Source: Chiridota heheva
Taxonomy: Eukaryota > Echinodermata > Holothuroidea > Apodida > Chiridotidae
Assembly (NCBI GenBank): GCA_020152595.1
Contig: JAIGNY010000912.1
Coordinates: forward strand, 863,501 to 927,500
Direction of reading: 5' to 3'
Length of the DNA: 64,000 nt
The position numbers were made by a program, and so were the translations under genes. Within the stretch, counting starts at the first letter, position 1; the number at the start of each line of letters is the position of its first letter. The notes beneath the pieces were generated by a model. It saw nothing but the letters and a program-made list of their open reading frames with translations, did no database searches and had not been told where the DNA came from. Positions 20,435 to 44,600 of this stretch are shown in pieces.

Positions 20435-20580
20435 CCTGAAAATCGTGGTATCTGGGAGACGCTGCTCCTGCACAAAACAAGGACTCTAGAAAGATTGCAA
20501 TTATTTAGGCACTATTTAATATGGTTTGACACTAAAATTTGCGGTATCTGAGAGATCAAAAAACGCCACACTGTGGGGGA
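20435..20580 (-). repeat. Inverted satellite monomer(s) at array edge
   Basis: The reverse complement of about 20467-20580 matches the 174-bp satellite: GTGTGGCG, TTGATCTCTCAGATACCGC, TTTTAGTGTCAAACCATATT and CTTGTTTTGTGCAGG. A second, shorter inverted piece lies at about 20435-20465. These face away from the main array. Confidence 0.85.
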
Positions 20581-20589
20581 GTAGTAAGA

Positions 20590-23500
20590 GGACACAGACC
20601 CCGACCAATGTGTAGGGGAGTGTCCCCCGCCGTGTGGTGTTTCATGATCTCTTAGATATCGCCATTTTTAGTGTCAAATCATCTTACATAGTACCTCCGA
20701 AAGAATGAGCTTAGTAAAACAGGTTTTCATGACTATTTTTTGCACAGTTTAAATTGCAATCTTTCTAATTCTTGTTTTGCGCAGAGGGCAGTGTCCCGCA
20801 AGGCAGTGTCCCGCACCGTGCGGCGTGCTTGATCTCTCAGATATCGTGACTTATAGTTTCAAACCATGTCAAATAGTACCTCAGTCTGTAAGAATGAGTA
20901 TAGTGAGACACTGGGGTTTTCATTACTATTTTTTGCAGTTTAAATTGCAATCTTTTTCATTCCTTTTTTGTGCAGCGGGAGTGTCCCCCGTCGTGTGGTG
21001 TTTCATGATCTCTCAGATATCGCCATTTTTAGTGTCAAATCACGTTAAATAGTACCTCCGAAAGAATGAGGTTAGTGAAACAGGTTTTCATGACTATTTT
21101 TTGCACAGTTTAAATTGCAATCTTTCTAATTCTTGTTTTGTGCAGAGGGCAGTGTCCCGCAAGGCAGTGTCCCGCACCGTGCGGCGTTCTTGATCTCTCA
21201 GATATCGTGACTTTTAGTTTCAAACCATGTTAAAAAGTACCTCTGTAAGAATGAGTATAGTGAAACAGGTTTTCATGACTATTTTTTGCACAGTTTAAAT
21301 TGCAATTTTTCTAATCCTTGTTTTGTGCAGAGGGCAGTGTCCCCCACCATGTGGTGTTTCTTGATCTCTCAGATACCGCGATTTTTAGTGTCAAACCATA
21401 TTAAATAATATCTCTGAAAGAATGAGTATAGTAAAACAATTTTTCATGACTACATTTTGCAAAGTTTTAAATTGCAATCTTTCTAATCCTTGTTTTGTTC
21501 AGGGGGAAGTGTCCCCCACCGTGTGGTGTTTCTTGATCTCTGAGATAACGTTTGTTAGTGTCAAGCCATGTTAAATAGTACCTACGAACAGACGAAAGAA
21601 TGAGTATAGTGAAACAGGTTTTCATACCTATATTTTGCACAATTTAAATTGTATTGTTTCTAATCCTTGTTTTGTGCAGGGGTGAAGTGTCCCCACCATG
21701 TAGTGTTTCTTGATCTATAATATACCGCGATTGTTAGTGTCAAGCCATGATAAATCGTACCTCCAAAAGAATGAGTATAGTGAAACAGTTTTGTATGACT
21801 ATTTTCTGCACAGTTTAAATTGCTATCTTTATCATTCTTGTTTTGTGCAAGGAGAGTATCCCCCGCCGTGAGGTGTTTAATGATCTCTCAGATATCGCCA
21901 TTTTTAGTATAAAATCATGTTAAATAGTACCCCGAAAGAATGAGTATAGTGAAACAGGTTTTCATGACTATTTTTTGCAGTTTAAATTGCAATCTTTCTA
22001 ATTCTTGTTTTGCGCAGAGGGCAGTGTCCCGCACCGTGCGGCGTTCTTGATCTCTCAGATATTGTGACTTTTAGTTTCAAACCATGTTAAATAATACCTC
22101 TGTAAGAATGAGTATAGTGAAACAGGGTTTCATGGTTATTTCTTGTTTAGCTTAAATTGTAATTTGTCTAATCTTTGTTTTGTGCAAAGGGAAGTGTCCC
22201 CCACCGTTTCTTGATCTCTCAGATACCACGATTTTTAGTGTCAAACCATGTTAAATTTTACCTTCAAAATAATGAATATTTTGAAACAGGTTTTCATGAC
22301 TAATTTTTCCACAGGTTGAATTGCAATCTTTCTAATCGTTGTTTTGTGCAGTGGGAAGTGTCCCTCATCGTGTGGTGTTTTATGATCTCTCAGATCATTT
22401 TTAGTGTCAAACCATGTTAAATAGTACCTCCGAAAGAATGAGCTTAGTGAAACAGGTTTTTATGACTATTTTTTGCACAGTTTAAATTGCAATCTTTCTA
22501 ATTTTTGTTTTGCGCAGAGGGCAGTGTCCCGCAAGGCAGTGTCCCGCACCGTGCGGCGTGCTTGATCTCTCAGATATCGTGACTTATAGTTTCAAACCAT
22601 GTTAAATAGTACTTCTGTAAGAATGAGTATAGTGAGACAATGGGGTTTTCATTACTGTTTTTTGCAATTTAAATTGCAATTTTTTCCTTCCTTTTTTGTG
22701 CAGCGGGAGTGTCCCCCGTCGTGTGGTGTTTCATGATCTCTCAGATATTGCCATTTTTAGTGTCAAATCATGTTAAATAGTACCTCCGAAAGAATGAGTA
22801 TAGTGAAACAGGTTTAATGACTATTTTTTGCACAGTTTAAATTGCAATCTTTCTAATTCTTGGTTTGTGCAGAAGGCAGTGTCCCGCCCCGTGCGGCGTT
22901 CTTAATCTCTCAGATATCGTGACTTTTAGTTTTAAACCATGTTAAATAGTACTTCTGTAAGAATGAGTATAGTGAGACAGGCTTTCATGATTATTTTTTG
23001 CACAGTTTAAATTGTATTGTTTGTAATCTTTGTTTTGTGCAGGGGTGAAGTGTCCCCACCATGTAGTGTTTCTTGATCTATAATATACCGCGATTGTTAG
23101 TGTCAAGCCATGATAAATCGTACCTCCAAAAGAATGAGTATAGTAAAATAGTTTTTCATGACTATTTTCTGCACAGTTTAAATTGCTATCTTTATCATTC
23201 TTGTTTTGTGCAAGGAGAGTATCTCCCGCCGTGAGGTGTTTTATGATCTCTCATATACCGCGATTTTTAGTATAAAATCATGTTAAATAGTACATCTGAA
23301 GGAATAAGTATAGTAAAACAATTTTTCATGACTAGTTTTTTTCACAGTTTAAATTGTAACCTTTAATCCTCGTTTTGTGTAAGCGCAGTGTCCCGCATCG
23401 TGTGGTTTTTTTTCATCTCTCAGATATCGCCATTTTTAGTGTCAAACCATGTTAAATAGTACCTCCGAAAGAATGAGTATAGTGAGACAGGTTTTCATGA

Positions 23501-24905
23501 GTTTTTTCTGCACACTTTAAATTGCATTCTTTATCATTCTTGTTTTTGCAGAGGGAGTGTCCACCACCGTTTGGTGTTTCATGATTACTCAGATACCGCG
23601 ATATTTAGAGTCAAGCCATGGTAAATAGTACCCTTGAAAGAATGAGTATAGTGAAACACGTTTTCGTGACTATTTTTTGTACAGTTTAAATTGCAATCTT
23701 TCTAATCCTTGTTTTGGGCTAAGGGCAGTGTCCCCACCGTGTGGCATTTCTTGATCTCTCATATACCGCGAATTTCAGAGTCAAACCATATTGAATAGTA
23801 CCTCTGAAAGAATGATTACAGTGAAACAGGGTTTCATGGCTATTTCTTGCCCAGTTTAAATTGTAATTTTTCTAATCCTTGTTTTGTGCAAAAAGAAGTG
23901 TCTCCCACCGTTTCTTGGTCTCGCAGATATCACTGCAATTTTTAGTGTCAAACCATCTTAAATTTTGCTTCCAAAATAATGAATATTCTAAAACAGGTTT
24001 TCATGACTATTTTTTGCACAGTTTAAATTGCAATCTTTCTAATTCTTGTTTTGCGCAGAGGGCAGTGTCCCGCACGGTGCGGCGCTCTTGAACTCTCAGA
24101 TATCGCGACTTTTAGTGTCAAGCCATGTTAAATAGTACCTCTGTGAGAATAAGTAGAGTGAGACAGATTTTCATGACTGTTTTTTGCACAGTTTAAATTG
24201 TAATCTTTCTTTACCTTGTTTTGTGAACGGGGCAGTGTTCCCACCGTGCAGGAGGAAGTGTCCCCTACCGTGTGTCGATTCTTGATTTCTAGCTCTCAGA
24301 TCCCGCGATTTTTAGTGTCAAGCCATGTTAAATAATACCTCCGAAAGAACGAGCATAGTGAAACAGGTTTTCATGTCTATTTCTTCCACAGTTTAAATTG
24401 CAATCTTTCTAATCCTTGTTTTGTGCAGGGATCAGTGTCCGCCACCAGTGTGGTGTTTTTTGATCTCTCAGATTCCGTGATTTATAGTGTCAAGCCATAT
24501 TAAAGAGTACCTCCAAAAGAATGAGTATAGTTGAAACACGTTTTCATGACTATTTTTTGCAATTAAATTGCAATCTTTCTAATCCTTGTTTTAACTGAGG
24601 GCAGTGTTCCCACCGTGTGGCGTTTCTTCGTCTCTCAGATATCGCGATGTTTAGTGTCAAACCATGAGCTAGTACCTCTGAAAGAATGATTACAGTGAAA
24701 CAGTGTTTCATGACTATTTCTTGCCCAGTTTAAATTGTTATCTTTCTAATCCTTGTTTTGTGCATGGGGCAGTGTCCCCCACCGTGCACAGCGAAGTGTC
24801 CCCCACCGTGTGGCGTTTCTTGATCTCTAGCTCTCAGATACCGCGATTTTTAGTGTCAAATCATGCTAAATAGTACCTCCAAAAGAATGAGTATTGCAAA
24901 AATTT
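20590..24905 (+). repeat. Satellite array, about 25 monomers of about 174 bp
   Basis: Each monomer runs AGTGTCCC(C/G)CACCGTG(T/C)GG, TTGATCTCTCAGATA, TTTTTAGTGTCAAACCATG, TTAAATAGTACCTC, GAAAGAATGAGTATAGTGAAACAG, TTTTCATGACTATTTTTTGC, ACAGTTTAAATTGCAATCTTTCTAAT and CTTGTTTTGTGCAG. The GATCTCTCAGAT-type block recurs about 25 times from 20645 to 24825, averaging 174 bp. Monomers fall into distinguishable subtypes that alternate or recur as larger blocks. No conserved coding frame exists through the array. Confidence 0.97.
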
Positions 24906-28888: not shown

Positions 28889-28948
28889 TGTCATCACTGC
28901 CCTGCGAATAAGCCCCACCTTGATTTTACACACTAACCAAAAACTCCG

Positions 28949-29336
28949 ACGACGACGAGTGTACACACAATTACAATGACGGGGTCGTCGCCTGCGTAAT
29001 CGGTTATGATAGTAACAATGCTATCACGAAACGCTTAATACGACCCGGACGAGAACACAGGTACGACGTACGGACAGACATAACATCGACAACCAAGTCA
29101 ATGTCCACGGCATTTGATTACCAGTTGTGGTGCACTGGCGTGTCTACCCAACCCAGGCTTGAACCTAGGGCCTCGTGGTCTGTAGACATGTATGATAACC
29201 GCTACACCACAGTCGGTAGACAACTTACTGCGTTAAGTGACATTGTAATAGATTGTTATGTAACTTTTGCGCAGAGGGCAGTGTCCCGCACCGTGCGGCG
29301 TTCTTGATCTCTCAGATATCGTGACTTTTAGTGTCA
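28949..29336 (-). mobile_element. tRNA-derived SINE (second family) with 5' satellite extension
   Basis: 388-bp insertion between 14-bp direct repeats AACCAAAAACTCCG (28935-28948 and 29337-29350). On the minus strand the SINE starts near 29220 with a tRNA-like head: GTGGTGTAGCGGTTATCA resembles the A-box half of tRNA-Val and GGTTCAAGCCTGG is a B box. A body follows that is shared with 43993-44155, then a CGTCGTCG tail. Between the SINE head and the outer target duplication are 116 further bases, of which 29263-29340 is a piece of the 174-bp satellite. Confidence 0.82.
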
Positions 29337-29759
29337 AACCAAAAACTCCGTACCTACAACACGTGTCAAGGGAAAGTGTTAATGCAAAGGAAAGTCGCTT
29401 AACTACTACTTTATAAATTATGTCTCAATTTTCATACAAGGAGCGAGTGTTAGAACTTCACTCAGAACACCACTTACCGATATATTGTTAACTACTTCCT
29501 CGATATTCAAAGGAGGATTCGCTTCGTAGCACATTTTAAATTGTGCCATATCTGTAGTGTCAGGTTTTTTCCATTGTTTTCCGGCAAAGTAATGTTATTC
29601 ACTCGCAGTCATGGAACTACTAAGTCCCAAATTATTTTGTCAGACGATATGTCAAAAGTTGTATATGAATATTCATATCTTATTACGTCATCGTCATTCT
29701 TGTATATGATTGGCTGAAAAAAAGCGCGAGTGGGAATATGCGTCTTGCCAGTCTTTGTA

Positions 29760-41600: not shown

Positions 41601-44600
41601 GTAGAAATTCGCGTGTCGATTATTGGACCAGTTGTATACTGGAGGATTCTTGACGGTGTGCACAATGCACGCAAAGGATGAGAAAAAGCGTATGACTTTC
41701 AAAAGCTAATCATACGTACGTTATACAAGAGGGCAATGGTGTAGGAACAGCAGGGGAGCATGGGAGGAAATGAAGGAAATCCTCCGAAATTTGAAGCAAA
41801 TTTCGTGAAAACTGAAAAGAAATTTCCGAAAATGCAGAAAACTTTTCAAATATGAAAGAAACTTCCCGAAAATTAAGGTAAATTTCGTGAAAACTGAGAA
41901 TTGTTTTAATGAAAATGATTTTTTTTTGAAAATTGAAGCAAATTTCACGAATACTAAAGGAAATTTCTCGAAAATTGAAGATTTCCGGCAGAAAAGATGC
42001 CATGATAAAATCATAATCATGGCATCTTTTCTGCCGGAAATTTTCAGTTTTCGAGAAATCTCCTTCACTTTTCGTGAAATTTGCTCCAATTTTCGAGAGA
42101 GAAAATATCATTTTCATAAAAAAAATTCTCAGTTTTCACGAAATTTACTTCAATTTTTGGGAAATTTCCTTCATATTTGAAAAGTTTTCTGCATTTTCAG
42201 AAATTTCTTTTCAGTTTTCACGAAATTTGCTTCAAATTTTGGAAGATTTCCTTCATTTTTCGGATATCTTCTTCATTTCCGAGAAGTTTACATCAATTCT
42301 CGTGATATTTTCTTTAATTTCGTGAAATTGTTTTCATTTTTGGAAAATTTTCATTCATTTTTGTGAAATTTTCTTCATTTTCGGGAATTTTGCGTCATCA
42401 CTGTCACTTCTCTTACCATTTCCGTTTTTCATGTCAATCTTCAATGTATAATTTGGATTTGGTATCATCGGCACAAATTCTTTTCTGTCCTTGTTTCGCA
42501 TTGGATCTACACATGCCACTGCCGTAAAAGGTATACTACTACCATCTCCTACGTCACGATATCGTAGTGCTCGTTCGTCTTGCTTCTGTCGCTTCTTCAT
42601 GTATGCAAAGCAGATGAGGACCGAGATGAGAGCAAATAATCCAACAAATGAAACAACCACGTAAAGCTAAAATAGAAACATACAGAATTGAACATAAACA
42701 CATCGCGCACTTCAGAATCTAGCAACATAAATTTATGCTGACATGAAACTATCAACAAACAAAAGAAGCCTTTTATCAGTTTGCAGTAAGCTTATCAGGT
42801 TAACAAATTATGACTGATCATAGTTCTAAGATTCTTTGATAAATTCCTACAGAGATGTAAAATATAGTAAATTTAAGTCATGGCATCCTTCTATGGAATT
42901 CTGTAAATAATAGATCTTTCCCTCAATTGTTGAATTGGTCTAGGATGTGCAATTTTAGTTCTTCACGCGTGACATCTAGTAGGTGGGTTTAAGGGTTTCT
43001 ACTTGAAAGAAAATGATAAAAATAAGGAAATGACATTCTAATTAGGAAAAAAATAACGTAAAGCTAAAACAGAAACACAGGAATGAGAATAAACTTATCG
43101 CATAACACACACTTCAAAATCTAGCAAAGTAAATTTATGCTGATATGAAATGATCAAATTTCGAAAAGTACCCTTTGGTAAGTTTACAGCAGGTTTACCT
43201 GGTTTGCGAAATTATGACTGATCAAAGTTCCAAGATTCTTTGATAAATGCAATTACGATATTTATAATATAGTTATTTATTTATAAAACAGCTTAAGGCA
43301 TGCCATGCTTCTATGGAATTCTGTGAATAATAGATCTTTCCCACGTAATTGGTGACTTGGTCAAGGATGTACAATTTTAGTCATCTGTTCATATGTGCCG
43401 ACTGGGATAACTGCCAGTTTTTCCAAAACTTTGATGGAGGCACTAGACCGAGAAGTGAGGACGCAATTTTCTAGAGACTCTAAAATATGCAAAAAAGCTT
43501 TTTGGTCGACGTGTAGAGCTACAAAACTGTTTTACTACCAATATTTATACCAAGTAGTTACCTAAGATTCATCAAACAATAACATATCATTTCTTTAGGA
43601 GGCAAATGCTTGAATGAATAATTGATAAATTCATCAATAAGAAAGCCCCTTACTTATGGCTCTAAACTGTTCTTTTAAGAAGATGGTAAAAAGGGGAAAT
43701 AAATGGTGTGAGCAAGTTTAACAAAATATATGCTCTTGTAAATTTCGGATACAGAGGCCTAAATAACATGGATTTACATACAAAATTGATAGATTTCCAT
43801 ACAAAAATGGAGAATAAGTCTATCAACTTGTAATAGGTCATAGTGCAAGCCAATCTTCAACCGGGTGTCTTTTTATGACGTCAATACAACGTCATTTCTC
43901 GTTATGGCTTTTTGACGTCATTTCTTGTTACGGCAACTTACCTAAAGTGATGTCTTATTGAAGTCGCAATTATCTACCTACTGTGGTGTAGCAGGCCGTG
44001 GACATTGACTTGGTTGTCGATGTTACGTCTGTCCGTACGTCGCACCTGTGTTCTCGTCCGGGTCGTATTAAGCGTTTCGTGATAGCATTGTTACTATCAT
44101 AACCGAATACGCAGGCCACGACCCCGTCATTGTAATTGTGTGTTCACTCGTCGTCGAAGTCGCAATTTATAACGCCACTATGATGCTGCGTACACTATCT
44201 TGTGATACATCACCTGATTAAAGTTTTTGTAAATTTCCCGCGGAATATCATGAAACTTTTTACTTTATTAATACCTGAATGTTTGTTTCCCGGGTCCCAC
44301 GCACGTTAGCAGCAGTAGCACTAACTTTGGTCAGTTAGTTGTATCCATAGGCAGCAAGCTTACTATACAACTATGACTGATAGCTAATTCTAAATAGCGT
44401 TTGTTATGGAGTCCGAGGTACTATTAAATGGATAGTGTGTAATTTATTTTGCATGACAGCACTGAGGATTTCATCAGGTGTCATACAAGTGCTTGGAACT
44501 TCCAAGTTGTTGAATGGAAGTAGATTGGTCTAGACTATCTGGGGTCTAAATCAGGCTATACTTATCCCCCACCCCCGGGGTGGGGGATAATGGGGTGAAT

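Follow-up and report, generated by a model that had tools for sequence, protein, structure and literature searches.

Pieces of other origin found 5' of retroposons are usually taken for copies of RNA, and recombination between a nascent cDNA and an L1 already resident in the genome is known to give rise to chimeric L1 elements. The insertion studied here (L001) resembles chimeric L1s in the route that we propose for it, in which the cDNA is extended on a homologous genomic element. It differs from them in that the element is a SINE and in that copying would leave the resident element into its flank and then proceed to a second local source.

Tripartite chimeras have been described in Magnaporthe (WEIRD, Mg-SINE and MGL) and in mouse (B2, U6 and L1), and template switching of the reverse transcriptase was proposed for their origin (PMC2104539). 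As they are presented there, these chimeras share with L001 the union of three pieces within one insertion flanked by direct repeats, which are 14 bp long in the fungal case; their pieces are copies of transcripts, whereas those of L001 include two that match, respectively, a genomic flank present in single copy and a single local satellite variant. LINE-1 chimeras and 5' transductions carry small RNA, mRNA or lncRNA sequences, and 6 of 17 transduced sequences were reported to end at splice donors (PMC13174262). L001 resembles those insertions in that foreign sequence lies within the TSD and is joined to the 5' end of a retroelement; in contrast to the cases described in that report, L001 has neither a donor site nor a colinear source. 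Furthermore, the dispersal of satellites with mobile elements has been discussed for molluscs (PMC5139131) and in a review (PMC6947457). The short satellite pieces beside or inside mobile elements that these sources describe are similar to what is seen in L001, whereas L001 represents a single event whose sources are identified. In our search of the literature on chimeras, junction mechanisms and the SINEs and satellites of molluscs, we found no SINE whose patch derives from two nearby sources, although this does not prove that none exists.

Structure of the insertion

The window is the whole stretch of DNA that was analysed (64,000 nucleotides; C907:863501–927500), and the genome searched comprised 1.1 Gb in 3744 contigs. 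L001 occupies positions 28935–29350 of the window and consists of a minus-strand tRNA-like SINE (28949–29223) with a 5' extension of 113 bp, both enclosed by perfect 14-bp repeats. These repeats (AACCAAAAACTCCG) are exact at 28935–28948, on the 3' side of the SINE, and at 29337–29350, on the 5' side of the insertion. In a chance control within the same sequence, an exact word of at least 14 nt (an 18-mer) was shared by 1 of 1929 pairs of random 70-bp windows, and a chance origin of the repeats was therefore ruled out. The enclosure of both the SINE and its extension by 14-bp duplications, as stated in a preliminary description of this locus, is accordingly confirmed.

Read in the sense of the SINE (minus strand), the order of the pieces is TSD (CGGAGTTTTTGGTT), satellite piece, flank of L002, TSD of L002, linker AAG, SINE, (TCG)n tail and TSD, where L002 is another SINE copy on contig C907, at a distance of 81 kb. 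The SINE body has its (TCG)n tail at the 28949 side and is characterized by A57, A105, T112 and C234. The extension, which measures 113 bp from the usual family start TTGTCTACC (116 bp by an earlier count), has two parts, one similar to L002 (29224–29266) and the other satellite (29265–29341), both on the minus strand. The first part comprises the linker AAG with a copied L002 TSD (29224–29239; CACTTAACGCAGT, compared with CACTTACGCAGT in L002 itself) and 27 bp of the 5' genomic flank of L002 (29240–29266), the last two positions of which (29265–29266) are common to the satellite part. The satellite piece is identical at 75 of 77 positions to 22008–22084, in agreement with the roughly 75 bp of satellite that had been recognized before. 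Adjoining pieces overlap by bases present in both sources: AACCA (29337–29341) where the TSD meets the satellite, and TT where the satellite meets the flank. The whole extension was present once in a genome-wide search. The second family copy in the window (43960–44167, plus strand) is internally deleted. It lacks an extension, as had been noted, and its SINE begins right behind a 12-bp repeat (GAAGTCGCAATT; 43960–43971 and 44156–44167).

Pieces of separate sources are fused inside one TSD, which is the mark of a template-switch chimera, and this anatomy supports the earlier view that satellite and SINE arrived in a single event. The preliminary description overlooked the identity of about 43 bp of the extension, which correspond to the TSD and 5' flank of the distant copy L002. 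Judging from these alignments, three sources were probably joined within one TSD, both sources of the extension being local.

Sources of the 5' extension

L002 is located at C907:973888–974210, outside the window. The 43 bp of L001 that adjoin the SINE match the 5' side of L002, including its TSD. The SINE of L002 is bordered on either side by a 12-bp TSD of its own (CACTTACGCAGT). In L001 this sequence, lengthened by an additional A, is present only 5' of the SINE, accompanied by the linker AAG and 27 bp of farther flank. Because the TSD is two-sided in L002 and one-sided in L001, the flank of L002 represents the older state. A 32-bp core of this flank, searched with up to 3 mismatches across the 1.1 Gb, was found only in L001 and at C907:974176–974207, without mismatch at either place. 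Satellite was also sought around L002 and none was found, the flank running on into satellite-free DNA.

The likely donor of the satellite piece is the local satellite array (20614–24863, plus strand), whose consensus has a period of 170. A search of the genome with 58 bp of the satellite piece, allowing up to 3 mismatches, returned only L001 and three monomers of the local array, which lie 6–8 kb from the insertion. Among the 40 of 88 candidates that were scored, all satellite matches of at least 94% identity besides L001 lay in the local array (C907:884–888 kb), those on 15 other contigs were at most 89% identical, and a further match on C907, at 769 kb, was 82% identical. No monomer of the local array was identical to the satellite piece, and no satellite-carrying unit that spreads was found. 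An inverted partial monomer is present at 20522–20580, just beyond the left end of the array.

The target and the two sources of the extension share one contig, and neither source is more than 82 kb from the target. The chance that a random place in the genome lies within 81.5 kb is 1.5e-4, a measure that was picked after the result had been seen. That the local array, and not one of the many other satellite places, was the source adds to the argument for locality. Within C907:823901–1024400 (200 kb), we found six SINE-matching stretches including L001, one of them at just 74%, and the near-complete 5' ends besides that of L001 were those of L002 and of a copy (L047) 35 kb to the left. A SINE beside satellite was looked for in the same interval, and the sole array seen there has no SINE nearer than L001. 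Among 30 loci, many of them overlapping, L063 was the only one apart from L001 with both satellite and SINE, and its SINE piece is cut by the locus edge and lies approximately 1 kb from the satellite; no source locus with a SINE beside satellite was found among these loci except this piece. The earlier suggestion of a 5' transduction from a SINE adjoining satellite is consequently not supported: no such source was found, and the flank captured is that of the satellite-free L002.

SINE family and sub-lineage of the inserted copy

The tRNA-like stretch of L001 (29147–29216) matched the Rfam tRNA model over positions 1–71 of 71 with 20.4 bits (E = 0.11), a score below the gathering score of 29, and ARAGORN detected no tRNA gene in the window. 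Genome-wide, the family has 4913 exact 5'-end matches. The first family search yielded 2544 candidates, of which 40 were scored; the 41 copies inspected came mostly from the scored list and were hence picked by their likeness to L001, so that old copies are under-represented. Most inspected copies begin with a form of TTGTCTACC and finish in (TCG)n. A direct repeat of at least 7 nt near the SINE start was present in 27 of 38 copies (L001, L009, L038 and L045 excluded), a few of these cases being doubtful (L003 and L030 lie inside tandem repeats, and L044 has an unmatched gap). Since no TSD was recognized in the remaining 11 copies, other kinds of extension are possible there. Many dispersed copies have TSDs, as is characteristic of a tRNA-derived SINE.

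Satellite sequence was sought beside other SINE copies at 54 loci and was found only at L001. Because no other copy at these loci carries it and most of the inspected copies start at forms of TTGTCTACC, the possibility that satellite is part of the family consensus, which the preliminary description had considered, is excluded. Among the same 54 loci, the non-satellite rest of the extension occurs only at L002 (L009 is the same place).

Several other arrangements were observed in the family. Head-to-tail tandem SINE copies, some of them linked by (CT)n, are present at L023 (C3288:436500–438700), L038 (C25:1764000–1766200) and L045 (C1197:1305800–1307400). SINEs on different contigs (C2:2237315, C10:160230 and C11:44513) have a near-identical upstream flank, as if a larger SINE-carrying unit had been copied. 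At L042 (C2123:303194–304471), a 13-bp repeat is located 93 bp upstream of the SINE start, and the stretch between the repeats resembles downstream sequence (94% over 69 bp); this locus was considered as a second case of extension, but it is ambiguous and may instead represent a long duplication or a target that was repeated.

In an alignment of 39 copies, L001 has A57, A105, T112 and C234, and L002 has G57, T105, G112 and T234. T112 occurs in 6 of the 39 copies (L001, L004, L005, L039, L041 and L044), all of which also have A57, T225 and C234. Over columns 57–274, L001 and L002 differ at 9 positions, which exceeds the distance of L001 to 32 of the 37 other copies, although changes private to L002 at columns 121, 184 and 222 inflate this value. 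The copies nearest to L001 over these columns (5 differences) include L003, L015 and L030, which lack T112, and overall distance alone therefore cannot place L001. No difference between L001 and L002 was found in columns 10–56, and the same was true of L001 and 10 other copies. Position 9 of the SINE, which is G in L001 and A in L002 and L005, is uninformative, and the first switch is therefore bounded only to before column 57. These data suggest that the body of L001 probably, but not certainly, had a template other than L002; the argument rests on four sites, and a mismatch of this kind could also result from gene conversion of one or the other SINE.

Origin of the extension

We propose that L001 arose by target-primed reverse transcription in which the end of the cDNA was extended on neighbouring chromosomal DNA, a multi-step account to which we give as much credence as doubt. 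As the anatomy indicates, a SINE RNA of the T112 sub-lineage would have been inserted by target-primed reverse transcription, and the normal 3' end and the 14-bp TSD would result from that insertion. Before attachment of the 5' side, the 3' end of the nascent cDNA, corresponding to the SINE 5' region, would have switched onto the homologous start of L002, copied the linker, the TSD and 27 bp of flank, and then been released. It would next have switched, with a 2-nt overlap, onto the satellite array 6–8 kb away, copied approximately 72 bp, and been joined to the target overhang through the five shared nucleotides AACCA. At a random junction, at least 5 shared nt, as at the TSD/satellite junction, would be expected with a chance of 0.008, and at least 2 shared nt, as at the satellite/flank junction, with a chance of 0.18. 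A review describes a jump of the cDNA to the top strand of the target, as well as some evidence for microhomology in second-strand cleavage (PMC2881922).

Extension of the cDNA on neighbouring DNA is favoured because the sources are local, because the order of the pieces and splicing do not fit the alternatives, and because the 3' end of the SINE is normal. The composition of the insertion, the rarity of both extension sources, their position on the same contig and the four disagreeing sites can be read directly from the sequences. The use of chromosomal DNA, and not of nascent RNA, as template is an inference, as is the order in which the switches took place. The overlap of only 2 nt between flank and satellite, the lack of an identical monomer, and the fact that there is one clear case count against the account. 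In its general form, that the cDNA end of a retroposon can be extended on neighbouring chromosomal loci before attachment, by homology on a resident SINE and then on satellite, we advance the interpretation tentatively and with slightly more doubt than credence. If it is true, the 5' end of a retroposon records loci near its target, and fragments of satellite could spread without satellite transcription. In the present case, both sources of the extension are identified, each is nearly unique genome-wide, and both are local, which points to nearby chromosomal DNA or to RNA tethered there. A quantity that can be measured is the genomic distance from the target of a chimeric retroposon to the sources of its 5' patch.

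The main rival is a double template switch at the RNA level, in which the reverse transcriptase would have left the SINE RNA for a read-through transcript of L002 and continued on a satellite RNA. We know of no reason for RNA templates to be local unless they are still tethered. With sources within 82 kb, despite satellite on 15 other contigs and 4913 SINE 5' ends, a double switch between RNAs would need molecules still tethered to nearby loci, and we consider it unlikely. It would nevertheless account for the TSD and the normal 3' end of the SINE, and the SINE, the L002 flank and the satellite piece all match one strand of C907; moreover, the resulting DNA would be no different if the switches had occurred between nascent RNAs of nearby loci. 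The tripartite fungal chimera with 14-bp direct repeats, as described, provides a precedent (PMC2104539). The template switching between SINE and satellite RNA proposed in the preliminary description is supported in a general sense, but the sources are the local array and a SINE copy at a distance of 81 kb, and DNA templates therefore account for the pattern no less well than RNA templates would. Transcription and retroposition of the satellite do not follow as a conclusion; the event has the appearance of local copying during insertion and is no proof of either.

Classical 5' transduction, with L002 as the parent of a transcript from upstream, later gene conversion of one of the two SINE bodies and a separate switch for the satellite, appears improbable to us. 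In its favour, the SINE is adjoined without interruption by the linker, the TSD copy and the flank of L002, and L001 and L002 do not differ in columns 10–56. However, this identity is common to 10 other copies, the four sub-lineage sites mismatch L002, and L002 is not adjoined by satellite; the extension is not contiguous with the flank of one parent, only 29224–29266 matching L002. We regard as very improbable a break repair without retrotransposition, in which a staggered break was patched from SINE, L002 and satellite: the nearby origin of the pieces and the bases that adjoining pieces have in common would fit such a repair, but the SINE ends at its normal 3' tail by the TSD, as in the rest of the family, where random patches would rarely end. 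A spliced read-through transcript initiating in satellite is scarcely credible and was rejected, since, although an AG is available at the L002 junction (CATAAGTTACATAAC), the monomer inspected has no GT past the junction (GCGCAAAACAAG), and the minus-strand order on C907 is L002, target and satellite, opposite to that of the inserted pieces, so that with satellite downstream of L002 on the transcribed strand no linear read-through can yield what is observed.

TATAWA motifs upstream of SINE insertions

The TRE5 elements of Dictyostelium target tRNA genes, and their ORF1 protein interacts with TFIIIB (PMC5911963). In 19 of 38 copies of the SINE examined here (L001, L009, L038 and L045 were excluded beforehand), the motif TATAWA was present at –45 to –15 before the SINE start. 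In thirteen 30-bp intervals from –450 to –60, it was present in 0–3 of the 38 copies each (14 in total), and the corresponding controls gave 0–3 copies per interval on the opposite strand and 0–5 downstream of the SINE. In a second set, obtained with a query from another sub-lineage (20 of 39 sites), 7 of 20 had TATAWA in this position, including one within an AT repeat (L090), and an eighth copy had it at –10/–8. These sites are not all independent, as some flanks recur and L007, L016, L017, L026 and L044 share repeats.

On the reverse strand, TATAWA started at –43 to –18 of 744 of 2415 SINE 5' ends, compared with 87 of 2415 at –83 to –58, with one match per SINE end among the rows listed. 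For the 2498 ends on the forward strand, the respective counts were 953 and 198, both inflated by overlapping matches. Examples with the motif approximately 30 bp upstream and outside the TSD are L005, L006, L008, L017, L021, L027 and L043; it is absent at L001 and L002. Because TATAWA lies upstream of the TSD in most of the listed cases, it belongs to the target and was not copied with the SINE. In our search of the literature on TATA and promoter targeting, no SINE with a TATA preference was found, which does not prove absence. The positions of the motif suggest that the SINE inserts near the start positions of putative TATA promoters and in the same direction. TRE5, as described in the cited report (PMC5911963), offers a comparison for such promoter targeting, with tRNA genes as its targets, whereas the SINE is found near TATAWA.
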